64,000 nt of DNA from Mytilisepta virgata (taxonomy: Eukaryota > Mollusca > Bivalvia > Mytilida > Mytilidae), in assembly GCA_028015205.1 (NCBI GenBank), contig CM051514.1, positions 49,864,150-49,928,149 on the forward strand, in the 5' to 3' direction. The notes below the pieces were generated by a model. That model had not been told where the DNA came from. It saw only the letters and a list, made by a program, of their open reading frames with translations, and did not search any database. Position 1 is the first letter of the stretch; each line of letters starts with the position of its first letter. Shown here piece by piece: positions 3,309 to 61,209 of the stretch. The translations under genes were made by a program, and so were the position numbers.

Positions 3309-6300
3309 ATACCAAACAAGGATGATACCGATGGATGTTCAGTTGTACAAATCAAAGACAGAAGGGTAACTCGCTTTGCTCCAACAGACAGCAGTGAAAC
3401 TCTGGCAAAACCACTATGTCTGAGTAACTTCTGTAAAAATGGACGCAAAAGTAAATAAAGTATTTAATCTTTTACTTATTCCTCACTTCAATATGTGAAT
3501 GTAATAAAACGATACTTTTACATAATGAAGGATTGATCATTAGGTTTTAGTCCATTAAGTTGGATTTGAACTGTTTTCCATTGAATAACATTTCAAGGAT
3601 ATATAATGGTTTAGATGGCTTGCTTTTTCCCCGTCTTTCATTTTCAGTTAAACGTGACGTAGATATTTCTTTGCATAGTAACAGGAAAAATATGTTTTAA
3701 ATGAAAAACAAAGATTGGATTTTTATTATTTATTGTTTACAATGCTTGTTTTATATAGTGAAGTTTAGTCCATGTAATCGGGTAACCTTTTACTTTTATG
3801 AAGGGACTACGATACAGTAACCTGTGGAGGGGACACATTGTGGTGTTTCTCCCGGAACACCCTAAAATTTGAGGTTTTCTTAAATATGTTCATAAAGTGC
3901 GCATGGACCCCTACTTTTTTCTGTTCCAAAGTCTATTACTTAAATATCATTATACAAACATTATAAAGACACATTCAGTAGATATATGTATGTAAAAATA
4001 AAAAAAGATCATCAACATTCCTTAGTTAGCCAAAATGTGCATAATTTCCTAATTGTTTTATCGATCTTTGCCACCAATTATTTATGAGAGAACAAAAGTA
4101 TTAGTACAAAAGACGTGGTGAAGTTATCTTTTTCGTTAAAAAGTTTGGCAATTTGATGTAAATGTCGTGCAATGTGAGAAAGTAAGGGATTATGGCTCAA
4201 ATCAGTATAAAATGACTTAAATCTTAATCGTGAAGGTATGCTTTTCTTTGCAAAAATCAAAAGAATAAACAAAAAGCAAAATGTCTGCAAAATATCAGTA
4301 TAAAAACATTACTGCATTTTATATGGCTAAATAGCCTGATTACAACTTAAGTATGATTTTATAAAGAATGTAGAATAGGGAATGCTTTACACGAGATAAC
4401 AGACCTTTTATTTGTAACTGTTACAATATTTATTCAGTTATATTGGAATGTCTTCGTACCGTATCATTTAACAAAACTTGCCGTGATGCCATAGACGATT
4501 GTGCACATTGGAGTGCCAGTTTAACGTCCGAGAAGACACTCGAATCAATGCAACTTGTAAATGTAAAGGAAGGGTATTATTGGGCATATGACAGCAACAC
4601 AATGAAAGTTACAACTAAGGAAACCCAAGACGACTTTGATGAACACAGTTCTGGTATGTATATATGTACATGTATTTGAAAAATAAATGGAGGACTTGAT
4701 ATGGTCTACCAGCGCTCTTAAGTCTCGGATACAAACTATAAAAAATATTTAATTCAAGTTTAATTATAATGAATAATGCTGTTTTGTTCTAATTATAGTT
4801 AGTTTACTAGTATTATAGGTTTTTTTCATTTTAGTTATACGTGTATTCTCCTGGCGTTTGTCAGCTATCTTGCAGAAAAAGTAACAAAATGATAAAAAAA
4901 TATAATGAAATAAACAGAATAAAAACAAGGCAGCACACAAATAAAATACAACATGGGAACTCCCACTCAATTTGATATTTTCAATGTAATAGAAGAGATA
5001 GTTTAACATATTTTCATAGGTTTTTCTTAACTCAACATGTGATCATAACAGAGAAAATATAGCGGAAAACCTTCAATAATAAATGTATTTCTGAAACATT
5101 AAACATATTCGAGAATGTTAAAAACTTTAATGATTACTCAAAAATTGATAATCTATAACCCTTTCCAGAAATTCATTTCCGGTATCACGATTTTGATATA
5201 ATTTGAAAAATTTGAAGCAAGTTATTTCCCTTTCTTGGATGTTCCGGGACGTAGTACTGGATCGCTGCAATGAAAAGTAAAGTAGTATCTGTTTTTTAAA
5301 ACGTAATGTTTGGTTTATATAAACTTGGGAACTACTTACGATCTTTTTGCTTCCAACATACTTGTAATCAAACTTGCACTGCAGTGAACTGAACCAGTAC
5401 TACGTCCCAGCAAGGGAAATAACTTGCTTCAAATTATAATTTTTGGGTCAGAATTGTGATACTGGAAATGAGTTTCTGGAAAAAGCTACAACAATATCTC
5501 TTATTTTTCAAACAAGCGTATTCGGAATCTCTTGTTACTGGGACTGGATATTTTACAACAGTTGAAAGAAACAGAAATAATTTTGTCAAAACTAATTATG
5601 GTATGTTTTCATGTTTTCATAAATTTATACAACCACATCCCCTAAATGGTTTCGCTATTTGGGATATAACTTATAATTGCATGTCCATGATGTTTTTGTG
5701 ATTTTGATAAAAGACTAAACACAACAATAATCGAAATAACTGTAAATAAATTCCAAGCCAAGTTTCCATATATACATTTCCTATTTCAAATCTTTTTAAC
5801 TAGAAATTGCACAATGTGTCTATATTTAAAATATATATGAATATGAAGCTTAATTATTATTATATATTACAGGTGTGATTATAGGCATAATTTTTGGAGT
5901 GTTAGTAATGCTTGGAATTATTTTACTCATCGTAATACTGTAAGTTAAAACCTAATGTATAGCTTTAGTCAACACAGACTACAAAAATGGAAAATAACAT
6001 GAAATCAGACACATTTGCTGAATTTCCAATTGTGTTCTATAAATATCAGCAAAATAATACCAAAGCAATAACATGGGTAGAGATGTCTTTACGATCACAA
6101 TAACAAGACGAATTACTTAAAACAGTAACATAGGCAACAAATTCTATAAAGATATAAATGATGGAATAAAAAACGTAACATACATTTGTACCAAAGAGAA
6201 TCATAACAGACTGAACAACTAGCAAAGTGAATTCCAAAAAAAACCCGCATTATCCAAAATGTAATTCTTATCAACGTTTGTAACGTGTATTTGCAGACTA

Positions 6301-7573
6301 CAGTCAGTGGCCATAAATAAGTTCCCACTTGTGAATTTCCGTGTACAATTCATATAAAATTACTTTATTTCAAAATACTGTCCAGATATTATTCCTTATC
6401 CCATTATTATAAAATTTATACGAACACTCTCAGAAATATTTACGTTTTCCTTAGATAATTCTGAATTGTTCTGTCATTCCGTATTTAAGATAAATCATTA
6501 ATTAAACACAAATAAGATTTTATGTGTGTAAAAATTTCATATGTGTTATAGGGAAAATACTGTTCAAAATTAGTATCTGTATTTAAATTGTAGATTTAAA
6601 AAACAACAAAATATTATGATATTGTGATATTATCAGAATAGATTTTAGATATTTCTCTGCTCATCAATACAAACTTCATTAAAATCAGAAAAAATACCTT
6701 CAGGACAAATTTTTGTGGTTTTATGTTATGTATAGCCAATTGTCCAAGTGGAGACAAATTTAAGGCTGACTGTATGATTTGTATGTTGTAGTTGATATGT
6801 TGTTAACCAGGTTTAATGAGAATGCACTATGAATTTGTGATCATTATACCCAGATTCGCAACGACAATACCACAAATACAATGCTTTTGATAGATGCAAA
6901 TAACGTATTCACCATAATTCAGTATCATCCGGAAATTAAGTTTACACTTTAAAGTGGTTTCGTATTATGTCTGGAAAAGAGTTTTCAATAGTGGTACAAT
7001 AATAAGTAGTTTATAGTCTACCGAAAAACTTTGAATATTTGAGACAGATTCATTAATTCAAACAAGAAACATATTGCATATGAACATTTTATGTTATTAT
7101 ATTTTTGGTCATCTGGGTTTGTATGACGAAAAGTTCTAGCAGAAAAGTCTATTGTAACTAATTGAATGCATGAATTTTATTTTGAAAGTACATGTTTTCT
7201 TACTGAGGTATATTCCATATAATTTCAATTGATATTTAGTGTGAAGCGAAGAAATACAAAGTCTGAAATACCTGAAATTACTCTAAACAATATGTCAAAC
7301 AAAAGTGGGCGTCCGCAAATATCAGCATACTACAGCGTTGTAGAGGATGTCATACAAACAGATGAACATATACAGGAGGGTAGTGACAGTGGAATAAAAT
7401 TTACACCTAGAATACCAATGGAAATAAGTAATTATGAAAACATAGACGCCATTAATATGGAGAACAATGTTTATAATAATACAGACTTCACGTACGGGAA
7501 CCAATTTCCGAAGCAGGATGTCGGTGAATATGACAATGTGGCTATTGACTATCAAAACAACATGAAACGATGA
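3309..7573 (+). CDS. Single-pass membrane receptor, copy A (five exons, 5' end not found)
   Basis: Visible exons are 3309-3450, 4438-4653, 5517-5600, 5873-5939 and 7240-7573, giving 280 residues. All have AG/GT borders with matching phases (0-1, 1-1, 1-1, 1-2, 2-stop). Exons 1 and 2 hold three cysteines each, and exon 2 has an N-glycosylation sequon (NKT) and the motif GYYWAY. Exon 4 encodes one transmembrane helix (VIIGIIFGVLVMLGIILLIV), followed by a basic stop-transfer (VKRR) at the start of exon 5. The 110-residue tail has tyrosines in YSVV, YENI, YNNT, YDNV and YQNN; four fit the pYxN motif bound by Grb2-type SH2 domains. Exon 1 starts in phase 0, so a signal-peptide exon should lie upstream but I could not identify one. 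A possible AATAAA lies at 7970. The exon 2 pattern C-x3-I-x2-C...GYYW faintly recalls half a C-type lectin fold; that is only a guess. The reading frame is open throughout. Confidence 0.78.
5161..5483. repeat. Foldback (inverted-repeat) element upstream of exon 3, copy A
   Basis: Arms of about 100 bp (5161-5275 and 5385-5483) are reverse complements, ending in 'ccagaaattcatttcc' and 'ggaaatgagtttctgg' and containing the shared word 'gaagcaagttatttccctt'. The right end lies only 33 bp before exon 3, next to its polypyrimidine tract. Copies occur at the same site in units B and D, while unit C lacks it. Confidence 0.8.
7240..7573 (+). CDS. Receptor A exon 5, cytoplasmic tail
   Basis: This is the final exon, preceded by the acceptor 'ttgatatttag'. 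It completes a codon begun in exon 4 and encodes 110 residues starting LVKRRNTKSEIPEITLNN. Five tyrosine motifs are spread over the C-terminal 80 residues. The four homologous plus-strand exons are each exactly 334 nt, with substitutions but no indels, which supports a constrained coding sequence. Confidence 0.85.
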
Positions 7574-8115
7574 AATAGTGAATATAGTACCAAGCAAAGG
7601 TCAATTGACATAATGATTGTAAAATATTATGATAGCTAATAAGCTGCATTGAATCATTATTTGGTGCTTTTGTGAAGTTAAGATTATAAGAATGTAGTTG
7701 AAAGTTTTACATTGTGCATAACGTTAACTTATATTTCCCACTATGTCACAGAAATACAAATGACAATTGGACTCTGAACTGTCAAATGTCTAAAGGTAAA
7801 AAAAAATAATAGGAATACAATGTACTAACAATATAAATATAATGTACTTAAACTTTGTTTATTAATTATCGCGAGTTTTATCACAGTGTATTAGAAATAT
7901 TGCAGTGTTCCAGTTTGTATTGTATTTTTTAAAGAGCATATCCTTTTGATATCACTGCCAAAGCATGTAAATAAATAATAAGACGGATGTCAGGGACAAT
8001 GATATTCCAATTAATGAACACCACCCAATCGACAGACCTTTAGACAAGAAACAACCATACCAAAAAAAATTCAAACAAAGAAACAGCAGAGGGTCGGAAT
8101 AGTCTGACTTGTTAG
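7574..8115. other. Receptor A 3' flank with dispersed repeat
   Basis: This matches the 3' flanks at 23.4-23.95, 42.83-43.4 and 59.53-60.1 kb. From about 7985 it enters a repeat with 'gaacaccacccaatcgacag', found downstream of every receptor copy and inverted near 37.3-37.4 kb. A candidate polyadenylation signal (AATAAA) lies at 7970-7975 and is conserved in the other units. No open frame is conserved. Confidence 0.6.
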
Positions 8116-11500: not shown

Positions 11501-11675
11501 GTAACCAGTAAAAGAGAATAAAGTGATTGTAGAGGATTGTGATAGATTTCATACGTCTAATAGGCATGATTAAAATTATTAAAACTTTATTTCGTAATTC
11601 CTGTGAAACAAATCATTTAATGTTCTATAAAGGTGTAATTCAACTTTTTTTGGTCTTCCAAATGTTTCGGTTTTA

Positions 11676-11722
11676 ATGCTGCTGATGAGAGGTAACTCCT
11701 TGAAATGCGTCGTATACAGCAT
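11676..11722 (+). ncRNA. Type I hammerhead ribozyme motif (copy 1, left)
   Basis: Stem I pairs ATGCTG (11676-11681) with CAGCAT (11717-11722). The core CTGATGA is at 11682-11688. Stem II GAGG-loop TAACT-CCTT is followed by GAAA (11702-11705). Stem III is ATGC/GTAT with a 3-nt GTC loop. Cleavage is predicted after the ATA triplet, between 11716 and 11717. All invariant core bases are present. Confidence 0.8.
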
Positions 11723-12052
11723 AGTATAAATTAACTATATCTAATATAAATATCTTTGGATTGTTATTTTGAAACTCCTGGGATGATGCCTCTGCTGGTG
11801 GACCCTAGGTCCCCGAGGGTATTCGCCAACCCAGTCGTCAGACTTGTCTGACATGATTATTCATTGATTTGTTACAGAAATTACCAGTATTTAGCAAAAT
11901 TCAAAAAGAATAGAAATACTAAGGGTTCATTCCTTGTATTGCACATGGTAGATCTCCTTAGCTGAAATTTGGCTTCCTATTTCAGTATTTTTGGTTGAGT
12001 ACTTCTTTTTTAATATATGTTGGGTTTTGGTCTTCCAAATGTTTCGGTTTTA

Positions 12053-12099
12053 ATGCTGCTGATGAGAGGTAACTCCTTGAAATGCGTCGTATACAGCAT
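12053..12099 (+). ncRNA. Type I hammerhead ribozyme motif (copy 1, right)
   Basis: This has the same fold and sequence as the left copy. The core CTGATGA is at 12059-12065, GAAA at 12079-12082, and predicted cleavage falls between 12093 and 12094. With the left motif it would release a unit of 377 nt. Confidence 0.8.
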
Positions 12100-12133
12100 A
12101 GTATAAATTTACTATATCTAATATCAGTATCTT

Positions 12134-13834
12134 TAAATTTTGTTTCCAATTTTTTTTAATGATAAACAATAATAATAGGATACCTGTCAACTGTCTAAAG
12201 GTAAAAACTGAAGGGAGAACGAACCATATAAATATTTATATTTAAAAACACTTTGTCATATTAGATTGGTTTTTAAAATATCACGACTTTTGTCACAGAT
12301 AGTGTATCTGCTATGGTTTCCATGCATGCAAGAAATATTACATTGTTCCAGTTTTTATTATATTTTGAAAGTAGTACATACCCTTTTGATTGTATTTGTA
12401 AAGCACTTAAATAAATAATATGTACGATATCAGGAAACATCAAAAATGACATTCCGATCTATTAACCCTATCCAATTGTCTAACATTTAGACGAACAATA
12501 ATCATACAAGAAAAACAGAATCGTCCCGGTACAGAGTATTGATGCTTTAAACCTCCCCCTTATCTATAGTGAACCTATATGCACACTATAAAAGTTAATA
12601 TTTTATCGTTAGCAATAAGGTGGATGCTAGCATAAAAATTTAAAATTTTACAGTACAAATTTAGATACATTGTACCAGTGTCAAAATATGCTTGTTATCA
12701 GTGCACAACTAGCTAAGTGTAGTCAGATACTGTCGGTCTATTAAACGAAATTATCAGAAATAACACTCCATTAAAGTGTTTAATTGCGACCATTTGTGGC
12801 ATTGTGAGACTGTTTCAAGGAAACTCTCATTTAAGTTGATAATTTCAATATCCTCCCTCAAATTTAAAATTGGCTTCCTTTCAATACTTTGCAATTTCAA
12901 TCAACGTTAGATACATTTTTTTTGGGGGGGGGGGGGTGTTGGCATCTTGATTGTAAATATTGGATCGGAGCTGGTGGCCGAATATTAGTAAATATCAACT
13001 GTGTGGTTTTTTTTCAAATAGCAAGTGGATATCTGCATGGAATTTCTCAAACATTTCTTTAAAATGAAAGCAAAAAGTATTACACTACCTATTGTTCCGA
13101 TAGTCGTGGTGAATTATAGTCTTTTCCATTGCCGAAATGTCCAAAATATTTTACAAGAGCTGATTTCCATTTTTTGTGTGCATTTCCCTGATTTGTATAT
13201 CATCTATGACGTCACCACAAGAAATTGTGAAGTTGCAGAATACATGCAAGTTATGTTTCCGATCGCCTGATCCATTTTGACTCTTAAGGCATATCTTATT
13301 GATATTTTATTTGTACAGAAAATTAATGGAGTACTGAGTTTTTTAATCAAGAAATCAGTTGCCGAAGTACAAAGGGGTTAATTTTACTTTACCGAAGTCT
13401 ACCATAGATTCATTACTGTCATACACATGATATTTTTTATAAATGTTACCCACTTGTATGTGTGTGTATGCGGCTTCACATTGTTACTGCCTAAGATTTA
13501 TTTTCGTGATTTTTAAATTCTCACGAATTGGCATTTTCGTTGAATTTTGAATTTATGGATTTTGCCCTCTGAATGTTTTATTGTTTTTTCTTCACTATTA
13601 ACCCATTCATTTTCTTACTATTTTAATTTACTCTTTTAAGCATCAATTATTTATCTTAATTTTAAAATCTACGACAATCAATTTTAATTTGTTATAACTG
13701 TAACAATTTTTTCTAAATACAAACTTGTGCCAAGAAAAAAAGAATATTCATGAATCACGTGCACTCTAAATTCCTTGTCACTTTAAATTTTTCATATATC
13801 AAATGATTATATAAATAATCTTTTACTAAATATT
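12134..13834. other. Inter-gene stretch of unit A
   Basis: Parts match receptor 3' flank (12180-12850, compare 23.58-24.2 kb) and exchanger 3' flank (13440-13830, compare 24.74-25.06 kb). Positions 12791-12811 ('ccatttgtggcattgtgag') are the uninterrupted version of the site filled by ribozyme dimers in units B and D. A G-run sits at about 12926-12936. The 81-codon open frame at 13025 has no counterpart in other units and is not supported as a gene. Confidence 0.55.
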
Positions 13835-14615: not shown

Positions 14616-16687
14616 AGATATATATTACAAAAGAATAGATATTAATTCTTGCCTACATGCAAATGACAAATGTTAAAGCATAGTAAGCACTCTTAGTGAT
14701 AAGGTTTTGTAGTGAGAGTCACAATACCTTTTGGTACTATTGTTTTCCTGTTTTTTTTATATTTTTGTATATATTGTTTTAACTGTAAATAAAATAGCAC
14801 TCTAAAAGTATGAGGAAGTTCATTTTGAAGACTCGATTCAAAATAATGATAAGAAGTTTTATTCACTTGTAAAATTAATTTAACATCTGTAACTCATATG
14901 TCAATTTTTACATTTGTACAATGAAGTTCCAATATACACAATATCCTGCGTTATATATTCTCTGTGCGTATGTCAAAGTTCAGTTTTTTAACAATTCCAT
15001 ATATGTTGCATAGCAATGCCAAATATTATATAAGTATGTTGAACATGATGCATGGAAAAATGATTAAACAATGTTTTCGTTTAGTTAAAAGCCTCTTGAC
15101 ACTCAAAGTAGAAATGTCCTGCTGGTACAGACGTGACCTTATTCTCCATATTTGAATCAGTAAATGTTCATTTTCATCGTTTGAGTTTTTTATTATCATT
15201 TGTTCTTTTTCTAAGATCTTTACATAATTATCGTAGTCTGTTCTTTCCATATTGTACAACTGGACGTTACATTATTCAGGTATTGTACATTACCGAAATA
15301 GCTCGTTCTTCTTTTTTTCTATATCAAATGATGATAATCATATATTTAAATTTAATTTTACTGAGGCTCGTTTGAAAAAAAAAGATAAATATATTTCAAA
15401 ACTTGGTTATACTTAAATATATCAAATAGTGTTAGTACATGTAACATTGTTTGTGTTGCATTTATATTTCCTTTACAGTGAAAAATTTAAGTTTTCATAT
15501 TGTACTGAAAACTGTATAATAACCCAGTAATATGTAACATTCATTTAACTACATGCATGTACCAATTTGCTTCAGTAGTAACATCTAATTCAACTAACTA
15601 CATTGTTCATACAAATCTGCTATAGTACCAATTATCACTGGTACAATTATCAAGTACCATCTGTAAGTTTTATGGTTATTGCTGAAGATTCAAGATGAAG
15701 AATATAGCATAGAACTGTTGCATTTCTGTTTATATTATGTATGACTTTCACAACTACATTAAGCATACCGTGCATCCGTTTTTATCCTTTTAGACACACA
15801 AATTATTACACTGATGATCAGCAACGAAAATATTTATTGGTAGATACAGCTATTCAACACTGCAGGAAAAATGTAAGTCTTGTTTTCAGGGAGCATGAAA
15901 TTTGGTAGAGATATTTAACAAGGAGAGCACTGAAAGAGAAGATGAAATAAACAAACCAGACGAAGTAGCTAACGATCACACGTCATTCTCTTCAAAAATT
16001 AGGTAGTCCTATTTCCAAAGCAGAATGTCAGTGATTATTTTATTCACCATAAATACGTAATATAAACTTGATTTTGATTAACGACTTTTTCACATGTATA
16101 AATTTACTATATCTTATATTAGTATCTTTGGATTGTTATTTTCGTCTTGTCTTCGTTGTTCTCGGGAGTTTGTCAGTTGTTTCGATTTTTCCCTCCTTCG
16201 AATATCCCTTTGGTATTTCTTGACTTGACATATAGTTTATCGTTAAAACGTGTCCACATGTGAACACCCCCTATTTTAGTTTTGAACAGAGCAGGACATA
16301 CTTATCATTCCAGATCACCTGAGTTGGCATTGTCACCGCTTTGGCTTTTTTGTTAGGGTCCCAGCAAATTAAGAAAAAGCCCGTTTGGCGTTAGTGGATT
16401 CTCGGAATTAGTAATACAATAAAATGCATGCTAAAGTTAATTATGAATATCCAAGGTATTCACCGCTTATGTTCCCCAGTTTTGACAATGAATTTTATAT
16501 ACACAACTAAATATTAAATGCTATGATACGTGGATTTAGAAACCGATGTCCTTATTCTTATTCTTTTATTTTTTACCTTTATTTTTTTTTTAATTTGTTT
16601 CATTTACTTTAATATGTATTCTAGGGCATAAATGGAGAGTTTTTATGTTAACTTTTTCATATGATGATTGATTTATTATCAGACAAT

Positions 16688-16741: not shown

Positions 16742-18313
16742 TGTTTCCGAATACCAGTTTTACTCAAAGCATAAAATGTTAGAAGCCAAACTATAATCCA
16801 AAATGTTGAAGAGAAAATTCAAATGCCAAAATGATAAAGCCTGCACCTCATCTAAGGATAGAGTTGCAAACTATGGAGTTGTTCTGAAATGTGCTAATGT
16901 CAACCTTTTTTAGATGATTCACTTCTACATTGCACAAATCGAACAATTCAATGCAACGGATAAGCACATATACACAAAGTACATACCATATAAGAACCAC
17001 TACGTCTGATTAAAGTGCCTCCACACAAAAATCAAGGAAATATTTCCTTCATAAAAAATATGGACATTACTTCCCTGAAATAAAAATACACGACTTGTAT
17101 AATTCGTATTTGTCATGAATGTCATTGTTTTAGGCACTAACAGGAGAAATGTCTATATACAAAAACATTCTGTACTCTATTTTAATCTGAAGTTTTGTTT
17201 GTGTTTATTTGACGTTTTGTACTTGCGCCTTGTATAATTATCATTTTCCAAACTTAAAAAGATTTTAAAACCTGTACACTTAAATCTGGTATAATTATAA
17301 TTTACCATCTCTTGCAACAGAAAAACCAGAACCACAACTTCTCAGTGTCTGTATCAAGTCACACTATTCTAATTCCCTGATGTTTCTATGTTTATGTGTT
17401 GTGTTCTTTATTTATTTTTTGTCTGGGAGCTGTAATTAGATCCTGTTAATTGATTGGCGTGTCATTGTTGCCCTTACCTGTTATCCGTTTTAATTAAGTA
17501 ATGTCATGAACTTCTACTGCTACTAGCTATTGAATATATCTCTTACCGTCTCTCTCTCTCAAACAGACTGGATTTTTTTGCACTGGAGTGTCAGGATACA
17601 TATGGGACAAGCTTGTGTACCAATACAACAGGTGTATCCCACCAATATTCAGTGCTTGTTCCAAGTCAGGGTATCCTGAATCTCAGTTTATATTTGTGTC
17701 TTGGTTATCAAAAAGGTTAACTGAAACATTTATAGAAATATTTCCCAAAGACACACACTTGTCCTTATACTAAAAAGAACCTTTCAAGCTTTTTGCTGGT
17801 CTTCTAAACTAGAATTCAGATTTCTATTAATTTTTGAAAGTAATGATGTAAGCTTCTAGATCAAGAGGTCTTCAGGGGTCAACTAAAGTGCTACTACTTG
17901 ATGTTCATAATTAACGACTACATATTTTTGTTATCTTTGTATATTTTGTTTGGAAGAGTTCATAAATAAATCTTCACATGGAAACTGCAACAAATTGATT
18001 TTTTGGAAGTAAAGGAAGTGATACTTGTGTAATTTGTATCGAAAGATTCAAATGCGTTTCTTTTTAAAAATCCACTATTCTCGGCTGGTAAACGTAACCT
18101 CTTTTAGGCTTAATATTTTTTACCAAATTTTGCAGCCTGAATATTTTTTTCAAATTCCATATATGACACTAAAATCCATACATTTACATAATATATGATC
18201 CTGAAATTTATTCAATCATTTATTAATGCAATATTTGTCTACATATTTGCATTTAACTACAACTAAATATTCGTACACTTTCCCATAGATTATTGTTTTA
18301 ATGAACTTATAAA
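16738..18313. other. Unit A/B junction region, no gene seen
   Basis: Positions 16740-17320 partly resemble exchanger intron. The 61-codon open frame at 17588 is not shared with other units. From about 17980 the sequence matches the window start (around position 370 onward) and marks the start of the flank of unit B. Nothing else is supportable. Confidence 0.5.
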
Positions 18314-18418
18314 ATAACAATCCAAAGATACTAATATTAGATATAGTAAATTTATACTATGCTGTATACGACGCATTTCAAGGAGTTACCTCTCATCAGC
18401 AGCATTAAAACCGAAACA
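18314..18418 (-). mobile_element. Solo hammerhead element with target duplication
   Basis: A 105-bp insert is flanked by 'ttataaa' (18307-18313 and 18419-18425). The uninterrupted site is visible at about 90-96 in the window ('tgaacatataaatcc'). The insert holds one complete hammerhead plus its AT-rich 3' flank and no spacer, comparable to a solo LTR. Confidence 0.8.
18359..18405 (-). ncRNA. Type I hammerhead ribozyme motif (solo copy)
   Basis: On the reverse strand, stem I is 18400-18405 with 18359-18364, the core CTGATGA is 18393-18399, and the predicted cleavage lies between 18365 and 18364. The sequence across core and stems is identical to the copies at 11.7 and 12.1 kb. Confidence 0.8.
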
Positions 18419-20998
18419 TTATAAATCCTTTAAAACTCTTTACTCTATTAATTGAATTTTTTGAATTTACGTTAAACGAGAAGAGTTTAAGCAAATTGTT
18501 AATTTATTTTAAATCTTCTATGAAACTAGTTGGTTAATTGGGAAAAGGGTCCCTTCTCAAGACTGTTTATGTTCGAGTTTTTCATTTGCAAGGTAATTTA
18601 ATAAGGTTGGGAAAATGCTTAATTTGTCAAAATCCACATTACTTTGCACAAGAAGTACTCTAAGGATGATGTTGTTAATATGATAAAATTTCTACTCCAC
18701 AATAATATCTTGAGTTTGGAAAAAAACTTTCCAAAGGAGCACTTAATTCCATTCACGTGGAAATTCACATTGTTGGTGCTTTAGTCTGATTTTTTTTTTT
18801 TTATTATTATTTATTTTTATTTACTTGCTCGAATTCTCTTTGGTTCGATATTTATTTTGTTTATTCTGTGAGTTATATCATTATATAATTGTACTTTGTG
18901 TGTTTGTTCGTGTGTATATGCCTTGTCTTCGGATTTCCATTCCATCTACTGTCCGTTATAACCATATAATGAATTCACATGTGCCAAATGGCTTCAATTT
19001 AAAATTGCAGTTTTCAACTCGAGATTTTAGTAGTAGAAACAGCAGCTTCAAAAATAATAGTACATGGACTAAATACAGTATAACATTCTTGTTTAGTATT
19101 ATTACAGATCCAAAAACAGGAAGACATGGATTTATGTTCAGTTGTACAAATCAAAGACAAAATGGTAACTCGCTTCGATCCAATTCAAAGCAGTGAAACG
19201 GTGGCACAACCACTATGTAACTTCTGTAAAAATGGAATCATGAGTAAATGACGTTTTTTTTTTACATATCAATTCCTAACTCCAGTATGTTCTTGAATGT
19301 AATAAAACAACCGATTTACATGATGACGTATTGGTCATTAGTTTTTAGTCCATTAAGTTGGATTTTAACTTTTTGTCCCTTGAATAACACTTTAAGGATA
19401 AATAATGGTTTAAATCGCTTGCGTTTTCTCCGTCTTTCAGTTTCAGTTAAACATGATTTAGATATTTCTTTGCATAGTAAGAGTGAACATACCTTCTCAA
19501 CAAAAAACAAAATATTTTTATTATTTGTTGTTTTCAGTGCTTGTTTCATAAAGTGAAGTTTAACACAAATCGAGTAACGTTTTACATTTATGAAGGGAAT
19601 ACGATACAGTGACATGGGGGAGGAGTGGGTAATGAGAATACCAAAAGACACAAATTGTGATGTCACATAGTTTCTCTCCTGAAATACCTTAAAATTGAAA
19701 GCTTTTTTTAATATTTTCACAAAAAACGCTTTTTACTTTTGCAAACAGAAGTCCATAACTTTGAAATTATTATACAAACATTTTAAAGACAAATTCAGTA
19801 GATATGTTTATTCTATATGTATCTAAAAATAAAAAAGATCATGACCATTCCTTAGTTAGCCAAAATGTGCATAATTTCCTATTGTTTTATCGATCTTGAG
19901 AGAACAAAAGTATTCGGGAATATTTTACAAACGACATGGTGAAGTTATCTCTGTCGTAAAAATGATTAGGACCATGTGAAAAACGTGTAATGTGAAAAAC
20001 TAAGGGTGTTTTGCTCAAATCAGTATCAAATGACTTAAAAAACTCAATCGTGAAGGTATGTTTCTCTTTGTGTGTATCAAAGGATAAACAAAATGCAAAA
20101 TGTCTGAAAATATCAGTTAAAAACATAACTGCATTCTATATTGCTGAATAGCCTGATTACAACTTTTTAAATATAATTTTACAAACAATGTAAATGCTTT
20201 ACACGAGATGAAAGACTTTTTATTTGCAAATTTTACAATATTTATCCAGGTAAATGTATTCGTACAAATACAGACAACAAAACTTGTCGGGATGCTATAG
20301 ACTTATGTACAAGCTTAAATGCCAGTTTAATGTTCGAGACGACACTTGAATCACTGCAAATGGTAAATCAATTGGATGGGTATTATTGGGCATATGACAG
20401 CAACACAATGAAAGTTACAACTAAGGAAACCCAAAAAACATTGATGAACACAGTTCTGGTATGTATATATCATGTATTTGAAAAATAAATGGAGGAATTG
20501 ATATGATCTTCCAGCGCTGTTCAGTCTCAATGCAAAATTGAATTGTGCATAAAAAATATTTCTACATTAACTATAATGGATAATGCTGTTTTGTTCTTAT
20601 TGTAGTTAGTTTACTAGTATTATAAGGGTTTTTTTTTCATTTTATACGTATATCCTCCTGGCGTTTGTCAGCTATCTTGAATAAAAAGTAATAAAATGAT
20701 AAAAAAAATATATATAATGAACTAAACAGAATTAAAACAAGGCAGCACAGAAATAAAAAACTACATGGGAACTCCCACTCAATTTGATGTTTTCAATGTA
20801 ATAGAAGAGATAGTTGAACATATTTTCATAGATTTTTCTTATCTTAACATGTGATCATTACAGAGAGAATATAGCGAAAAACCTTCAATAATAAATGTAT
20901 TTCTGAAACACTAAACATATTCGAGAATGTTAAAAACTTTTAAGATTTTTAGCGACAATTCATGCGGATGATTACTCAAAGATTGATAATCTATAGCC

Positions 20999-21333
20999 CT
21001 TTCCAGAAATTCATTTCCGGTATCACCATTTTGATATAATTTGAAACATTTGAAGCAAGTTATTTCCCTTGCTGGGATGTTCCGGGACGTAGTACTGGGT
21101 CGTTGCAATGAAAAGTAAAGGAGTAGCTGTTTTTTAAAACTTATTAATTTGCACAGAATGTTTAGTTTATATAAACTTGGGAACTACTTACGATCTTTTA
21201 GCTTCCAACATACTTGTAATCAAACTTGCACTGCAGTGAACCAGTACTACGTCCCAGCAAGGGAAATAACTTGCTTCAAATTATAATTTTTGAGTAAGAT
21301 TCGCGATACTGGAAATGAGTTTCTGGAAATGGC
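20999..21333. repeat. Foldback element upstream of exon 3, copy B
   Basis: Same element and same position as in unit A, with inverted arms ending 'ccagaaattcatttcc' and 'ggaaatgagtttctgg'. It ends about 30 bp before exon 3. Confidence 0.8.
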
Positions 21334-23057
21334 TGTAACAATATCTCTTATTTTTCAAACAAGCGTATTCGGAATCTCTTGTTACTGGGAATGGATATTT
21401 AACAACAGTTGAAAGAAACAAAAATAATGTTGTCAAAACTAATTATGGTATGTTTTCATCTATTCATAAAGTTATACAATCACATCACCTAAATGGTTTC
21501 GTGATTTGGGATACAACTTATAATTGCATGTCCATGATGTTTTTGTGATTTTGATAAAGACTAAACACAACAATAATCGAAATAACTGTAAACGAATTCC
21601 AAGCCAAGTTTCCATATATACATGTCCTATTTCAATTTTTTTAACTAGAAATTGCACAATGTGTCTATATTTAAAATATATATGAATATGAAGCTTAATT
21701 ATTATTATATATTACAGGTGTGATTATAGGCATAATTTTTGAGTGTTAGTAATGCTTGGAATTATTTTACTCATCGTAATACTGTAAGTTAAAACCTAAT
21801 GTATACCTTTAGTCAACACAGACTACAAAAATGGAAAATAACATGCAATCAGACACATTTGCTGAATTTCTAATTGTGTTCAATAAATATCAGCAAAATA
21901 ATACCAAAGTAACAAGATGGGTAGAGATGTCTATACGATCAAAATAACAAGACGAATTACTTAAAACAGTAACATAGGCAACAAATTCTATAAACATATA
22001 AATAATGGAATAAAAAAAATAACATACATTTGTACCAAAGAGAATCATAACAGACTGAACAACTAGCAAAGTGGATTAAAAAAGACCGCATTATTCAAAA
22101 TGTAATTCTTATGCACGTTTGTAATGTGTATTTTCATCGGCTACAGTCAGTGCCATAAATAAGTTCCCACTTGTGAACTACAATTCATATAAAATTACTT
22201 TATTTCAAAATACTGTCCAGATATTATTCCTTATCCCATAATTATAAAATTTATACGAACAATCTCAGAAATATATATGTTTTCCTTAGATAATTCTGAA
22301 TTTTCTGTCATTCCGTAGTTAAGAGAAATCATTAATTAAACACAAATAAGATTTTATGTGCGTAAAAATTTCATATATTTAATTGGGGAAATGCTGTTCA
22401 AAATAAATACTTGTTTTTAAACTGTAGATTTAAAAAAAAACAATAAAATATTATGATATTGTGATATCATCAGAATAATTTATAGATATTTCTCTGCTCA
22501 TCAATACAAATTTCATTTAATTCAGAAAAAATAATTTCAGGACAAAATTTAGACAAATTATGGTTTTATGTTATGTATACCAAAACTTCCACGTGGAGAC
22601 TAATTTATAGCTTCTGACTGTATAATTTGTATTTTGTAGTTGATATGTTGTTAACCATTTTTAATGAGAAGCGATATGAATTTGTGATCGTCATACCCCG
22701 ATTCGCAACGACAATACCACAAATACAATGTTGTTTGATAGATACAAATAACATATTCACCAAAATTCAGTGTCATCAAGAAATTAATTTTACACTTGAA
22801 AATGGTTTCATATTATATCTGGAAAAGAGTTTTCAATAGTGGTACAAAAATAAGTAGTTTTATCCTAATTAAAAACTTTTGACAGATTCATCAGTTCAAA
22901 CAAGAAATATAATGCATATGACCATTTTATCTTATTATATTTTTCAGCACAATTAAAAGTTAAAAAGCTATTGTAACTAATTTAATGTATGAATTTATTT
23001 TGAAAGTACATGTTTTCTTACCGAGGTATATTCCATATCATTTCAATTGATATTTAG

Positions 23058-23391
23058 TGTTAAGCGAAGAAATTCAAAGTCTGAGATACCTGAAATAACC
23101 CTAAACAATATGCCAAACAACAGTGGGCGTCCGCAAATATCAGCATACAACAGTGTTGTAGAGGATGTCATACAAACAGAGGAAAATATACAGGAAGGTA
23201 GTCACAATGGAATAAAATTTACACCTACAAAACCAATGCAAACAAGTAATTATGACACAATGGAGGCCATTAATTTGGAGAACAATATTTATAATCATGC
23301 AGATTTTACGTGCAGGAACCAATTTCCGAAGCAGGATGTAAGCGAGTATGACAGTGTGACTATTGGCAATCAGAACAACACGAAACAATGA
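23058..23391 (+). CDS. Receptor B exon 5, intact tail exon in a broken gene
   Basis: This is 334 nt like its paralogues and open to the TGA at 23389-23391. It encodes VKRRNSKSEIPEITLNN followed by tail motifs YNSV and YDTM. YDTM fits the YxxM pattern bound by PI3-kinase p85 SH2 domains, unlike YENI in copy A. Confidence 0.8.
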
Positions 23392-24209
23392 ATATAGTAC
23401 CAAGCAAAAGTCAATTAACACAATGATTGTAAAAGATTATGATAGCTAATAAGCTGGATTTCAATGATTGAATCATTTTTTGGTGATTTTGTGAAGTTAA
23501 GATTATAAAAATGTAGTTTAAAGTTTTACATTATGTATTGCGTTAACTTATATTCCCATTTTTTCACAGAAATACAAATGACAATTTGACTCCGACGTGT
23601 CAAATGTCTAAATTTAAAAAAAAATAATAGGAATACTAAGAATATAAATACAATGTATTTAAAGAAACACCGTGTCATGTTGCTTTTTGTTTACTAATTA
23701 TCGCGAGTTTTATCACAATACATTTGATATGGTTTTTATGGATGCTAGAAATATTAGTGTTTCAGTTTTTGATATCATTGCCAAGGCATGTAAATAAATA
23801 ATAAGACGGATTTCAGGAACAATGATATTCTAATTAATGAACACCACCCAATCGACAGACCTTTAGACAAGAAACAACCTTACAAAAAAAACAAAATTCA
23901 AACAAAGTAACAGCAGAAGGTGGGATTAGTCTGACTTGATACAGAGTAGTGATGGGGTTAAACCTCTCCCTTATCTACCATGACTCTCTGATGCATACTA
24001 TAAAAGTCAATATATTATGATCACCAAAAAGGTGACAGATGGTTATAAATATTAAAATTAGTTGGACAGTTAATAATTTAGTAGGAGTCAAAATGTAAAC
24101 ATTAGATAAGGCTCTCATAGCTGTAAGTCGGACAGTGTCGATCCATCAAACAAAATTATCAGAAATAACACTCCCATAAACGGTATAATTGCGACCATTT
24201 GACATTATG

Positions 24210-24256
24210 ACGCTGCTGATGAGAGGTAACTCCTTGAAATGCGTAGTATACAGCAT
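24210..24256 (+). ncRNA. Type I hammerhead ribozyme motif (unit B, left)
   Basis: The core CTGATGA is at 24216-24222 and GAAA at 24236-24239. The stem III loop is GTA instead of GTC, with the stem unchanged. Cleavage is predicted between 24250 and 24251. Stem I has one mismatch because the element boundary falls in its 5' strand. Confidence 0.72.
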
Positions 24257-24677
24257 AGTATAAATTTACTATATCTAATATTAGTATCTTTGGATTGTTA
24301 TTTTGAAACGCCTGGGACGATGCCTCTGCATGGTGGACCCTAGGTCCCCGACGGTATTCGCCAACCCAGTCGTCAGACTTGTCTGAGATGATTATTCATT
24401 GATTTCTTATAGAAATTACCAGTATTTAGCAAAATTCAAAACTAATAGAATTACTAAGTGTTCATTCCTTGTATTGCACATTGTAGATCTCCTTAGTTGA
24501 AATTTGGCTTCCTATTTTAGTATTTTTGATTATGAGTACTTCTTGTTTCAAAATAAGTTTGGTTTTTGGTGTTTCGGTTTTTATGCTGCTGATGAGAGGT
24601 AACTCCTTGAAATGCGTCGTATACAGCATAGTATAAATTTACTATATCTAATATTATTATCTTTGGATTGTTATTTT
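24211..24677 (+). mobile_element. Retrozyme-like dimer (unit B)
   Basis: The element is about 467 bp, flanked by 'acattatga' (24202-24210) and 'acattgtga' (24678-24686), a near-perfect 9-bp target duplication. Unit A has a single 'cattgtgag' at the equivalent place (about 12802). Cleavage sites of the two ribozymes are 373 bp apart. Spacer content matches copies at 11.8 and 60.5 kb. Confidence 0.8.
24583..24629 (+). ncRNA. Type I hammerhead ribozyme motif (unit B, right)
   Basis: Complete motif with perfect stem I (ATGCTG/CAGCAT). The core is at 24589-24595, GAAA at 24609-24612, and predicted cleavage between 24623 and 24624. Confidence 0.8.
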
Positions 24678-25063
24678 ACATTGTGAGGGTGTTCTACAGG
24701 GAGCAGGAATACTTATCCTTATTGAACACCAAAAAGCACTTCGTTTTTTTGTGTGTGTGAGTTCACATTGTTACTGCTTCAGATTTTTTTTTTGTGATGT
24801 TTATGAATTGGTCTTTTCTTTTGAATTTATGGATTTTGCACTCTGAATCTGTATTATTATTTTGCGGTTCTCTATAAACCCCTTCGTTTTTACTGTTTTA
24901 ATTTACTCTTTTGAGCATCACTTATTTTTCTTAATTTTAAAATCTACGACAATCAACTGACTGCAAAAAAATCAATATTCATAAATTACTATAAATTACT
25001 TGTCACTTTAAATGTTTTATATATCATATGATTATGTAAATAAATAATTACATATTTTAGTAG

Positions 25064-25392
25064 TTATTCGCCTCTTGGACAAATATCTGCAAAAGTGCCG
25101 AATACATTAAGTTTATATAAAACAGAAAAAGTTATTACTATAACGTAAGCCGTCAGACAAATACATCCAAAAACTTTGTTTAAAGTCCATTTAGTAAAAA
25201 ACATAGCGAGTACTAAAAACACTATAGTGGATAATAAAGTTATCGATGAGTATGTAAGGCCGTCACTGCTGATATTCACCACGTCTCCAGAGTTTACCGC
25301 GACCGTCTCGATTATCCAGGGAAGACCAAGACACACCAAAATATCAAATACGTTGCTTCCAATAGAATTAGAAACCGCCATGTCTCCAAAAC
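25064..25392 (-). CDS. NCKX-like last exon, unit B (open)
   Basis: This is 329 nt with acceptor AG at 25393-25394. It begins [14 protein letters not shown], the conserved second half of the alpha-2 repeat that lines the ion-binding site, followed by three predicted helices and a short C-terminus. A one-residue difference in length from copy D comes from a 3-nt deletion near the C-terminus. Confidence 0.8.
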
Positions 25393-26284
25393 CTCTATGG
25401 TATACGAATATGTGAGTTTATATAATAAGAAAGAAGAGATATTAATACTTGACTACATGCACGTGACATAGGTTTACGCAGAGCAACGGTGCTTTCGCTG
25501 CTTTTTTCAACTTATAGTCATATTGATCACAATTTTTAGTGACATTAACCAGATTTTTGCTAATATTTTGTTCCCTTATTTTGTTCGTCTTTTAATTGTA
25601 AATAGAACAGAATTCTAAAAGTATGGGAAAGTTTTTTCTTGCTTATTTCCTATTGAAACATCTGTCATAAAACAAGTATGTTAAAAATTATTTTTTTGAT
25701 ACCAATTTTGATGCAGAAAATGTGAAAATTTCGTAGATTTAAGTCTCAACAGTTGTGCTCAATGCCTAATATGTTTAAAACAAAACAAGAATCCAAAATG
25801 TTAAAGAGCAAATTCAAAAGTGCCAAAATGACAAAAAGGGGAAAGGCTATAACCATCTAAGGACAGAGCTGTGCACGAGGAAGATACTACATAGTTTAAA
25901 AATTTTGTAACAGTAAATGTAAAGCATGGTTTTGGGGCTAGTATCGAAGTACTAGCAACTGAATTTGGGATAAAATACCGTCTTAAAAGAGCCAACTATA
26001 TTTTTACCATTGTTACATTTGTCGCCTCTTACAATGAAGTTTCAATATACACAAATTTAAACGGGGAAGTATTTATGCAATTTTTATAACTGATTCGAAT
26101 TTAAAAATTTGAAATTTAACAGCTTGATTTAACAGGTGATTAAAGTCCAAGTCCATTTTCATTAAACTACATGTATTGTTATCAATAGGTATAAGTGCCT
26201 CGTTCAAAAAATGTTTTCCACGTTTCCGTCTTGAAATAGCATTATACAGTCTGTATGTATGACAAATGAAATTTTAAAACATTC

Positions 26285-36400: not shown

Positions 36401-39400
36401 AATGGGAACCAACTGTGCTCCTCTCCTCGCCGATCTGTTTCTGTACTAATATGAAGCGGACTTCATTCAAGTGTTACTATGTGAAAACAAAAGAAACTAG
36501 CCCAATCCTTTAATTTCACTTTTCGTTATATAGATGATGTGTTGTCGTTAAATAACGACAAATTCCAAGACTTTCTACATCTTATCTACCCCAGTGAGCT
36601 TGAAATTAAAGATACTACAGATACACCAAAGTCCGCTTCATATTTGGATTTGTTTCTTGAAATAGACTATGAGGGACGTTTGAAGACAAAACTTTATGAC
36701 AAACGTGATGACTTCAACTTTCCTATTGTTAATTTTCCCTTCTTGGATAGCAATATACCAGCATCGCCTGCATATGGCGTCTACGTTTCTCAGTTTATCC
36801 GATTTTCAATGGCAGCGTGAGTTACCCTGACTTTCGACAAAGATGATTACTGCTGTCACAAAAGCTTCTTAACCAGGGTTTTATCAGGGATAAGTTGATG
36901 TCATCACTTAAGAAATTTTACGGTCGTCATCATGAATTGATTGAGCATTACAGTGTTCCAATACCTAAGATGATGTTGGACCTGTTCCCACTGTCGTAAC
37001 CTTTCATGTGCCTCAACCGATTTGTGACTTCCACCGGATTGACGTATACGGAGCAGCAACTGCTTACCCTTCCGGAGCACCTGGGTTCACTCATGGTTTT
37101 TATAGGAGATCGTGTTGTTCATTGTTTTTTAGTTTTCTGTGTTTATTTGTTGTGCTTGTTGCTGTTCATTTGTCTTCCCGGGTCTGTCTTTCCAATGGAT
37201 TACGTTTTTTTTTTATTGTTCCTTAGGTATATTTGTCCTTTCTTTTAACCCAATCACTACTCTGCAATCAGACTATTTCGACATCTGATGTTTCTGTTTG
37301 CATTTTTTTGGTATGGTTGTTTCTTGTCTAAAGGTATGTCGATTGGGTGGTGTTCATTAATTGGAATATCATTGTTCACCTTTCCTGACATTCGTCTTAT
37401 TATTTACTTACATTCTTTGGGAATGATATCAAAAGGATACGCTCTTTAAAAAGTACAATACAAACTGTGTGATAAAACTCGCGATAATTAATAAACAAAT
37501 ATATATGTCACAGTGTTTCTTTAAATACATTATATTTATATTGCTAGTATTCCTATTATTTTTCTACCATTAGACATTTGACAGGTCAGAGTCGAATTGT
37601 CATTTGTATTTCTGTGAAAAAGTGGGAAATCAAAGTTAACGTAATACACAATGTAAAACTTTGAACTACATTTTTATAATCTTAACTTTACAGAATCACG
37701 CAGTAATGATTCAATCATTGAAATCCTGCTTATTAGCTATCATAATCTTTTACAATCATTATGTTAATTGACTTTTGCTTGGTACAATACTCATCGTTTC
37801 ATGTTGTTCTGATAGCCAATAGTCACACTGTCATAGTCGCTGACATCCTGCTTCGGAAATAGCTTCCTGCCCGTAAAGTCTGTATGATTATAAATATTGT
37901 TCTCCAAATTAATGGCTTCCGTGTTTTCATAATTACTTGTTTGCATTGGTTTTCTATGTGTAAATTTTATTCCACTGTCACTGCCTTCCTGTATATTTTC
38001 ATCTGTGTGTATGATATCCTTTACAACGCTGTAGTATGCTGATATTTGCGGACGTCCACTATTGTTTGGCATATTGTTTAGGGTTATTTCAGGTATCTCA
38101 GAATTGAAATTCTTCGCTCCACCCTAAATATCAATTGAAATGATATGGAATATACCTCAATAAGAAAACATGTACTTTCAAAATAAATTCATACATTAAA
38201 TTCGTTACAATGGACTTTTCTGCTAGAACTTTTCATCATATACACCCCTGACCAAAAATATAATAACCTAAAATGTTCATATGCAATATGTTTCTTGTTT
38301 GGACGAATCTGTCTCAAATATTCAAAGTTTTTTAGTAGACTAAAAACAACTTATTTTGGTACCACTATTGAAGAATCTTTTCCAGATATAATATGAAACC
38401 ATTTTAAAGTGTAAAATTAATTTCTTGATGACACTGAAGTTTGGTGAATACGTTATTTGCATCTATCAAATAGCATTGTATTTGTGGTATTGTCGTTGCG
38501 AATTGGGGTATGACGATCACAAATTCATAGCGCATTCTCATTAAAACTGGTTAACAACATATCAACTACAAAATACAAATTGTACAGTCAGAAGCCATAC
38601 ATTAGTCTCCACTTGGAAATTTTGCTATCCACAACATAAAACTACAATTTTTCAAAATTTAGTCCTGAAGGTATTTTTTATGATTTTAATGAAATTTGTA
38701 TTGATGAACGAGAAATATCTATAATTTATTCTGATAATATTACAATATCATAATATTTTATTGTTTTTTTAAATCTACAATTTTAAATACAAATATTAGT
38801 TTTGAACAGCATTTTCACTAGTAAACATATGAAATTTTGAGACACATAAAATCTTATTTATGTTTAATTAATGATTTCTCTTTAATACGAAATGGCAGAA
38901 ATATTCAGAATTATCTAAAGAAAACAAATATTGTTCGTATACATTTTATAATTATGGAATAAAGAATAATATCTGGACAGTATTTTGAAATAAGGTATTT
39001 TTATATAAATTGTATAGGGGAATTTACAAGTGGGAACTTATTTGTCTACCACAGCTGAATTTTTTTAACATAGAACCCTATAAAAAAAACAGCCAAATTG
39101 ACTGCAACACTTACATTTTTAGTCCTCCTCAAGGTGAAAAGATAAAATCCAGGTGAGCGATACAGACTCTTGAGAGCCTCTAGTTTATTAATATTATTAT
39201 CATTATTATTTTCTTTTAGTTATACATGAATCCTGCTGGGATTTGCCTGCCATTTTGAATAAGAATAAATAATATAATAATAATAACATATTAATAAACT
39301 AAATAGAATTGAAATAAGACAGTACAGAAATAAACCACTACAAATGGGAACTCCTACTTAATTTGATGTTTTCAATGTAATGGAATAGATATTCTAACAT

Positions 39401-42400: not shown

Positions 42401-42826
42401 CCATTGTAATAAATTGAATGTATGAATTTTATTTTTAAAAGTACATGTTTTCTTATTGAGGTATATTCCATATAATTTCAATTGATATTTAGTGTGAAGC
42501 GAAGAAATACAAAGTCTGAAATACCTGAAATTACTCTAAACAATATGTCAAACAATAGTGGGCGTCCGCAAATATCAGCATACTACAGCGCTGTAAAGGA
42601 TATGATACAAACAGATGAAAATATACACGAAGGCAGTGACAGTGGAATAAAATTTACACCTAGTTTACCAGTGCAAATGAGTAATTATGAAAACATGGAC
42701 GCCATTTATATGGAGAACAATGTTTATAATAATACATACCTCACGTGCATGAACCCATTTCCGAAGCAGGATGTCGGTGACTATGCCAATGTGGCTATTG
42801 GCTATCAAAACAACATGAAAAGATGA
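33471..42826 (+). CDS. Single-pass membrane receptor, copy C (expanded introns)
   Basis: Exons are 33471-33606, 35081-35302, 40729-40812, 41141-41207 and 42493-42826, all open with conserved phases. Exon 2 is the longest of the family (222 nt), with two N-glycosylation sequons (NKT, NAS) and the motif GYYWAY. The membrane exon reads VVIGIIFGVLIMLGIIVLLV. The tail has YENM, YMEN, YNNT, YANV and YQNN; YENM fits both YxN and YxxM. Intron 1 holds a solo LTR. Intron 2 is swollen to 5.4 kb by a broken second exon 2, an inverted receptor segment and an RT element. The exon 3 foldback element present in A, B and D is absent. Closest relative is copy A. As elsewhere, the signal-peptide exon is not visible. 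The insertions may reduce expression, but no coding break is seen. Confidence 0.75.
33931..34527. mobile_element. Solo LTR in receptor C intron 1
   Basis: The 597-bp insert begins TGTTACGG and ends CATAACA (TG...CA, inverted TGTTA/TAACA) and is flanked by 'atac' on both sides (33927-33930, 34528-34531). The homologous introns of A, B and D lack it. A poly(A)-signal-like 'aataaaa' occurs at about 33986. No internal coding region is left. The class (Ty3/gypsy-like) is inferred from the 4-bp target duplication. Confidence 0.75.
35673..35765 (+). pseudogene. Second exon 2, 5' part (unit C)
   Basis: After a normal 'tttattcag' acceptor it reads TFKCLITQRGNKTCSDSIDY then CANRNASFTS, clearly homologous to receptor exon 2. 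It stops at the breakpoint of an inverted segment, so this tandemly duplicated exon has lost its 3' half and donor. Confidence 0.8.
35969..37247 (+). mobile_element. 5'-truncated reverse-transcriptase retroelement
   Basis: The fragment starts within the RT domain (YWIPKLHKNPFKQRYIAGSA), includes QQTIAIPMGTNCAPLLADLF and the catalytic box FRYIDDVLSLNN (36521-36556), and ends with SPAYGVYVSQFIRF and a 3' tail to a TTTA-flanked junction. Breaks include an internal deletion before the palm, a TAA at 36447-36449, and frameshifts. RT copies DNA from its own RNA; YIDD holds the metal-binding aspartates. The layout fits a Penelope-like or LINE-type element; I cannot decide between them from this fragment. 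Confidence 0.8.
37791..38124 (-). pseudogene. Inverted receptor exon 5 copy
   Basis: The reverse strand from the acceptor AG reads VERRI then shifts frame because one base is missing in the 'gaagaaattc' segment. Downstream, 93 residues remain open (MPNNSGRPQISAYYSVVKD to YQNNMKR). It keeps YENT, YNHT, YDSV and YQNN motifs. It lies antisense within intron 2 of receptor C and lacks other exons. Confidence 0.8.
39061..39867. other. Duplicated intron 2 material in copy C
   Basis: Positions 39180-39460 match intron 2 of the other units (compare 4800-5090). A segment of about 90 bp at 39465-39555 recurs at 40005-40095, 'cctcacgcttagttttaaga' in both. No exon is present in this stretch. Open frames are not conserved. 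Confidence 0.55.
39868..39930 (+). pseudogene. Second exon 2, 3' part (unit C)
   Basis: It reads VENTIKVTTMKTQEDFDEQ and ends SSG at a normal donor (gtatgt), matching the 3' end of exon 2. It has no acceptor of its own. It may be the other half of the exon begun at 35673, now 4.1 kb away, or a third exon 2 copy. Confidence 0.7.
42493..42826 (+). CDS. Receptor C exon 5, tail with most tyrosines
   Basis: 334 nt, open, ending NNMKR. Compared with copy A, Tyr is gained in YMEN and YLTC, YENI has become YENM and YDNV has become YANV. Preceded by the same 'gatatttag' acceptor. Confidence 0.85.
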
Positions 42827-60358: not shown

Positions 60359-60405
60359 AGGCTGCTGATGAGAGGTAACTCCTTGAAATGCTTCGTATAC
60401 AGCAA
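60359..60405 (+). ncRNA. Type I hammerhead ribozyme motif (unit D, left)
   Basis: The core is at 60365-60371 and GAAA at 60385-60388. Loop III is TTC instead of GTC, with stem III intact. Cleavage is predicted between 60399 and 60400. Stem I is reduced to about four pairs (GCTG/CAGC). Confidence 0.65.
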
Positions 60406-60828: not shown

Positions 60829-61209
60829 GGTGTTCTTCACGGAGCAGGAATACTTATCCTTATTGAACACCAAAATTATTCCGTTTTTGTGTGTGTGCGA
60901 GTTCACATTGTTACTGCTTAAGATTTTTTTTGTGATTTTAAATGTTTATGAATTGGTCTTTTCTTTTGAACTTATGGATTTTGCACTCTGAATTTGTATT
61001 ATTAGTTTGCGGTTCTCTATTTACCCCTTCGTTTTTACTGTTTTAATCTACTCTTTTGAGCATCAATTATTTTTCTTAATTTTAAAATCTACGACAATCA
61101 ACTGATTGCAAAAAAAAACAATATTCATAAATTACTCTAAATTCCTTGTCACTTTAAATGTTTTATATATCATATGATTATGTAAATAAATAATTATATC
61201 TTTTAGTAG

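Follow-up and report, generated by a model that had tools for sequence, protein, structure and literature searches.

The best described counterparts of the repeats analyzed here are the retrozymes of the mussel Mytilus galloprovincialis, for which circular RNA and self-cleavage are reported as demonstrated in the accessible text of PMC7229834; since mussel retrozymes with circular RNA are already published there, the kind of element is known. A 2020 review describes metazoan retrozymes, in its accessible part, as having no conserved motif from which an autonomous partner could be deduced (PMC7761336). Penelope-like elements provide a second point of comparison, in particular through a purified Anolis protein described in the accessible portion of PMC11167929. 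With this protein, synthesis begins within the RNA, at two adjacent sites that correspond to genomic tails; these lie 111-118 nt into the frame, against 26 nt for the hammerhead cut. The same source reports that it favours AT-rich targets, that hammerhead mutants insert normally and that the main substrate is the uncut RNA.

The window, i.e. the whole 64-kb stretch of Mytilisepta virgata DNA that was analyzed, contains 8 copies of a type I hammerhead motif. The motif is composed of stem I (ATGCTG/CAGCAT), the core CTGATGA, stem II (GAGG/CCTT, loop TAACT), GAAA, and stem III (ATGC/GTAT, with a 3-nt loop) next to the site ATA. The layout is that of type I, with three helices and the open end at stem I, and is not the minimum-energy fold. 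A loose core pattern placed the core starts at 11682, 12059, 24216, 24589, 58908 and 60365 on the plus strand and at 18399 on the minus strand. Cleavage is predicted between GTATA and CAGCAT, and the first base after the predicted cut is at 11717, 12094, 24251, 24624 and 58943. Unit positions are counted below from this first base. The copies are distributed in the window as follows:

11647 to 12134, plus strand: retrozyme array of 1.29 units with two motifs, both with 14/14 pairs; 3' end at unit position 41
16096 to 16142, plus strand: retrozyme 3' tail fragment of 47 bp, unit positions 8-54, no hammerhead
18311 to 18420, minus strand: 5'-truncated copy of 110 bp with the motif 18359-18405; ends at unit position 54
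24212 to 24677, plus strand: array of 1.23 units, 5' end within stem I, motifs 24210-24256 and 24583-24629; ends at 54
58646 to 58752, plus strand: left direct repeat of about 107 bp, flanking the insertion 58744-58996
58744 to 58996, plus strand: 5'-truncated copy of 253 bp with the motif 58902-58948; ends at position 54
58999 to 59104, plus strand: right direct repeat, 92.5% identical to its left member 58646-58752
60361 to 60818, plus strand: array of 1.21 units, paralogous to 24212-24677, with the motif 60359-60405 and a broken motif at 60734-60770; ends at 54

All 14 planned pairs were found in 5 of the 8 copies (11676-11722, 12053-12099, 24583-24629, 58902-58948 and, on the minus strand, 18359-18405). 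Motif 24210-24256 has 13/14 pairs, its outer stem I base falling in the flank, and motif 60359-60405 has 12/14; both are short of 14 because the repeats start within stem I. In the eighth motif, at 60734-60770, the GAAA/stem III part is lost. The invariant core (CTGATGA, GAAA and the UH site) is present in 7/8 copies. An earlier note on this DNA had announced seven copies with all core bases and a partly deleted eighth, and both statements are borne out here, as are its five cut-site coordinates. The three-stem fold that it attributed to all seven stands for the core, the full stem I being present in 5/7.

Much of the window consists of segmental duplications, several kb long and sharing 82-95% identity with the stretch at 57-62 kb (5345-8114, 21197-26251, 37244-39043 on the minus strand, 41089-47141 and 57002-62500). 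They account for two retrozyme copies and provide empty sites. The arrays at 24212 and 60361 were taken as one insertion, because they have a common 5' breakpoint (unit position 340) and lie within a segmental duplication of about 5 kb. The copy 58744-58996 is absent from the paralogous stretch 22858-22966, which represents an empty site, and the direct repeats of about 107 bp around it are possibly a long target-site duplication. The array 11647-12134 is inserted in an older repeat, whose parts on either side of it lie closer together elsewhere. The window also contains tandem arrays of 156-bp units (1896-2506) and of 148-bp units (55809-56216); by eye, the 156-bp unit resembles the target of another retrozyme array, at locus L013.

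The loose core pattern gave 10 rows in the window (7 family copies, 2 extra overlapping rows of the minus copy and 1 unrelated row at 15811) for 0.71 expected, and none of 100 shuffles reached 10. The descriptor, which asks for the core bases and stems of at least 4, 3 and 2 pairs and for no loop sequences, was run on 362,874 bases of partly overlapping loci. It returned 152 matches with the family core; outside this core, only one match had at least 13 pairs, and it is itself a one-base variant of the family.

Covariance models gave a weaker answer. With Rfam, no match at E<=1 was found in the whole window, and no hammerhead at E<=10 was found on a locus with a tandem array. When 121 bases were given, an end-to-end match to RF00163 (type I) scored 15.0 bits (E 0.39) for a cut-off of 34, which is a tool threshold and not a trait that defines the class. 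The covariance check proposed in the earlier note is thus weak and not clean: there is an end-to-end match, below the cut-off, and nothing window-wide. We rejected Rfam alone as a ribozyme test, as too weak to decide. Predicted folding is also unfavourable. When the 47-mer is folded with nearest-neighbour energies, the hammerhead comes out at -7.1 kcal/mol against -12.6 for another fold (a gap of 5.5), forcing the hammerhead in the 378-nt circle costs 6.0 kcal/mol, and the hammerhead is the best fold in 0 of seven window stretches (six copies). Nearest-neighbour energies omit the contacts of the catalytic core; the unfavourable fold therefore weakens the hammerhead reading and does not refute it. 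In the published mussel hammerheads most of the usual loop contacts are absent, cleavage is slower than in a coral one, and some circles are predicted to keep the hammerhead not free, according to the accessible text (PMC7229834). Self-cleavage of the window-family motif is a predicted activity.

The size of the family was estimated with a 45-base motif. Allowing up to 3 mismatches, 14,212 matches were counted in the 1.03-Gb, 109-contig assembly (7,135 forward and 7,077 reverse), and exact matches amounted to 6,529 genome-wide; the reversed-pattern control gave 0 matches genome-wide, and the control of the exact search gave 0 as well. The repeat unit is about 378 bp long, and copies are partial, single or in tandem over many contigs. 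GC content is 36% in the one unit tested, and the longest frame overlapping 11647-12134 is of 55 aa. No reverse transcriptase or GIY-YIG frame is present in the repeat, as judged on this array, and the repeat is therefore not a Penelope-like element. The ends of arrays are truncations of the unit and not LTRs. A type I motif in 150-450 bp repeats arranged as dimers to multimers, a GC content under 50% and no coding frame are what is looked for in a retrozyme, and all were found here, with 34 of 69 sampled copies below one unit. We conclude that the family very probably belongs to the metazoan non-LTR retrozymes. The retrozyme-like family proposed in the earlier note is supported, given the type I motif, the unit size, the low GC, the arrays and the many contigs, and we infer an ability to form small circular RNAs. 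Viral contigs contained no exact copy of a 27-mer from the motif; near kin of the window genome are possibly absent there.

Array structure was studied on 70 loci plus the window, aligned to three neighbouring real units. This gave 82 placements, from which 12 in overlapping loci were dropped, leaving 70 arrays. The sample is not random: 20 loci are the best matches to the window array and the rest are the first exact motif matches along contig C1. Among the 69 arrays uncut by a locus edge, 34 are shorter than one unit, 22 span one to two units and 13 are longer; the corresponding numbers for the 52 arrays of C1 are 30, 17 and 5. Among the matches listed, the shortest arrays span a tenth of a unit and the longest about 13 units. 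Two copies at L054:2648-3459 are arranged head to head, inverted, 122 bases apart.

Units are much more alike within arrays (33 pairs, 10 arrays, mean 1.6 differences, median 0) than between arrays (231 pairs, 22 arrays, mean 14.4, median 12). Three of the 10 arrays are less uniform: L013 shows 5 differences, L009 8, and one in L062 6-13. Eight long arrays, hand-picked from the listings, have one period each, 378 in five of them and 377, 379 and 380 (with one 383) in the others. Other listed arrays are irregularly spaced, e.g. near C1:9.167 Mb and C1:12.251 Mb. Such uniformity would follow if a single circle were copied over and over, and unequal crossing-over could produce it too.

The main observation concerns the ends of the arrays. 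In 65 of the 70 arrays, the 3' end is located at unit position 50-60, about 54 nt past the predicted cut, and no array of the 70 ends at the cleavage site. The five exceptions end at 41 (the window array 11647-12134), 69, 235, 285 and 294. Alignments ending at 55-60 were taken, by eye, for chance extensions. The retrozyme tail ends in TTTT (unit positions 51-54). In junctions anchored on TTGTTA (n=62), exactly four T's of the unit precede the flank in 30, and 1-3 or 5-10 in the others. The 5' ends are scattered over the unit, 4/69 lying within 17 positions around the cut for 3.1 expected. The same 3' boundary is visible genome-wide: a 45-mer ending at position 54 has 15,548 matches and a 45-mer across 54/55 has 5,993, counts which depend somewhat on the variants chosen. 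From this drop, most copies end just past the tail.

DNA copies pass through the predicted cut site unbroken. Since copies are continuous across the cut, a hammerhead-cut unit left linear cannot be the template. An RNA that escaped cutting or was closed again can serve, provided that synthesis starts internally, as can an RNA which itself ends at 54. A fixed 3' end with a 5'-truncated form is what target-primed synthesis yields. The reading to which we give somewhat more belief than doubt is that of a high-copy retrozyme family for which a Penelope-type reverse transcriptase starts inside the RNA circle, about 54 nt past the cut. According to this scheme, the repeat would be transcribed and the transcript would be cut by the hammerhead, at the predicted site between GTATA and CAGCAT, into units. 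A host ligase may then close the unit into a circle, by analogy with the published mussel case. An autonomous Penelope-like protein would nick AT-rich DNA and start the cDNA internally at unit position 54, as suggested by the fixed 3' end. The enzyme would go round anything from part of a turn to about 13 turns before falling off, which would produce both the scattered 5' ends and the uniform arrays. A Penelope-type enzyme is named because the plan, i.e. hammerhead, short tail, fixed end and AT flank, is as in Anolis.

The closest alternative, which we consider unlikely, is that a linear read-through transcript that escaped cutting is the template, with the same internal start at 54 and an array length copied from the source array. 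It is in keeping with the continuity of copies across the uncut site, and fixed 3' and scattered 5' ends fit it equally well. It also has the Anolis precedent on its side, hammerhead mutants inserting normally there and uncut RNA being the main substrate in the accessible text (PMC11167929); this result means that a circle may not be a required template. It would demand, however, that source arrays be already uniform to give uniform arrays with their own period, and in mussels the related repeats build up chiefly in circular form according to the accessible part of PMC7229834.

The TTTT tail brings in a further alternative, since a transcript end at position 54 is possible. In this SINE-like case, a linear transcript would end at the T-run 51-54 in the manner of polymerase III and then be copied from the 3' terminus by an enzyme of either the LINE or the Penelope type, with the hammerhead serving for trimming alone. 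The common end at a T-run and the near half of TTGTTA junctions (30/62) with exactly four T's agree with it, whereas multi-unit arrays would require repeated read-through of this very T-run. ARAGORN found 0 tRNA in the window, where degenerate heads could escape detection. We hold this explanation to be quite improbable. Lastly, an ordinary satellite spread by recombination, its hammerhead look being a relic or due to chance, would account for uniform tandem units, the weak covariance score and the unfavourable predicted fold, but is very hard to believe in view of the sampled copies that are dispersed and below one unit (34/69), a 3' end shared by copies whose 5' ends are scattered, empty sites in the window for one copy (58744-58996) and 6,529 exact motif copies.

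Under the preferred reading, i.e. an internal start inside the circle, the target would be AT-rich. The flank right after the T-run starts with AT in 26/62 junctions for a background of 17.6% (one-sided binomial p 6e-6). Most junctions lack a target-site duplication, 40/69 scoring zero. Five of the 69 junctions exceed the maximum of 400 swapped-pair controls (L013, window 58744, L055, L064 and L059), and by eye those of L013 and L064 lie in local repeats. With zero scores in 40/69 and two of the top five in local repeats, target-site duplications were rejected as a proof of insertion.

We then examined Penelope-like elements as candidate partners. Locus L073 carries a canonical one (RVT_1 42.8 bits, GIY-YIG 29.8 bits), whose protein shares 89% identity with one from Mytilus edulis across 65% of its length. 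A receptor exon of this genome shows 80% identity to a serotonin receptor of Mytilus trossulus and up to 84% to unnamed proteins, and a search for COX1 gave no match in the assembly; the two protein comparisons suggest that the host is likely a mytilid of a genus other than Mytilus. CTGACGA...GAAA...GTC occurs at 1591 and 4763 (L073:1591-1703 and 4763-4875) and constitutes a hammerhead-like core, reported by neither the descriptor nor Rfam. When the 3' region of L073 was searched, with 40 of 317 candidates scored and rows counted by eye, 41 rows began at query position 1; one is the locus itself, 18 run into an (AT)n tract and 22 stop at 236-237. In 15 of the latter, a separate (AT)n match begins 75-79 bases further. 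This family thus appears to stop at either of two fixed ends, one about 66-77 nt past the core GTC, the other about 77 nt beyond, on (AT)n. We do not claim L073 as the partner: its plan is alike, yet it ends on (AT)n tracts, on which the retrozyme generally does not end, and no tail match was seen.

A second kind of Penelope-like element is abundant in the genome (150 of 6,692 candidates scored), and fragments of it lie at 44726-45781 on the minus strand of the window. A close genome copy of these fragments, L071, has an 856-aa open frame and an RVT_1 score of 20.4 bits (under the cut-off). Its frame is bracketed by a 118-bp repeat, in which none of the CTGA-N-GA cores of L071 lies. Locus L072 looks by eye like the same kind, with the GIY-YIG domain N-terminal; no CTGA-N-GA core was seen in 6,001 bases of it. 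Permuted elements of this sort are known as Naiads. The absence of a core from the L071 repeat and from L072 led us to reject the window fragments of this second kind as the partner. No Penelope-like element sharing the retrozyme tail was found among the elements compared (L071, L072 and L073). Within 16096-16235, the sequence next after the 47-bp tail fragment looks by eye like the 118-bp repeat of L071, possibly a nested insertion.

Taken together, the 14,212 motif matches, the 65/70 ends, the 45-mer drop, the uniform units, the plan of L073, the AT flank and the Anolis results argue for the proposed mechanism. Weighing against it are the weak Rfam score, the unfavourable fold, the use of uncut RNA in Anolis, the 5/70 other ends and the 3/10 less uniform arrays, as well as the irregular listed arrays, the rarity of target-site duplications, the (AT)n ends of L073 and its unconfirmed core. 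That the fixed start about 54 nt after the cut is a tail signal marking animal retrozymes as Penelope parasites which prime inside circles is, in our judgement, close to an even call, leaning slightly to the negative. If true, this tail signal would supply the motif so far missing between metazoan retrozymes and an autonomous partner. With its placement like that of a Penelope tail, the common 3' end is a clue to this partner, and the question becomes testable. Thousands of insertions in one genome also offer material on which to study how RNA circles undergo rolling reverse transcription.

What is new here is the insertion anatomy, in which the 3' end is fixed and the 5' ends are scattered. 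The literature searched, mostly open-access and partial in places, gave no mention of such a fixed end for retrozymes, which does not prove novelty. The accessible description of the Mytilus galloprovincialis family (PMC7229834) does not mention a fixed 3' tail at position 54. Compared by description, the Mytilisepta virgata family is for the rest like those retrozymes: both carry a type I hammerhead, occur in tandem or dispersed, have units in the range of about 350-390 bp with low GC, and number thousands of copies (accessible text of PMC7229834). The motif copies counted here are about 3x the roughly 5,000 reported there. As described in the accessible parts of PMC7229834 and PMC7761336, plant LTR retrozymes are likewise non-autonomous and flanked by hammerheads, and are thought to move via RNA circles; they differ by type III hammerheads, a size of about 700 bp, LTRs with a primer-binding site and 4-bp duplications. 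As far as the accessible text of PMC11167929 and locus L073 describe them, canonical Penelope-like elements share with our family a hammerhead or hammerhead-like core, a short tail with a fixed 3' end, an AT-rich target and a partial tandem and inverted arrangement. Unlike these elements, which carry a reverse transcriptase and a GIY-YIG domain, the retrozyme has no frame >55 aa in the window array and a longer stem III. The fixed tail end after the hammerhead (65/70) speaks for a Penelope-like way of working, not for membership.
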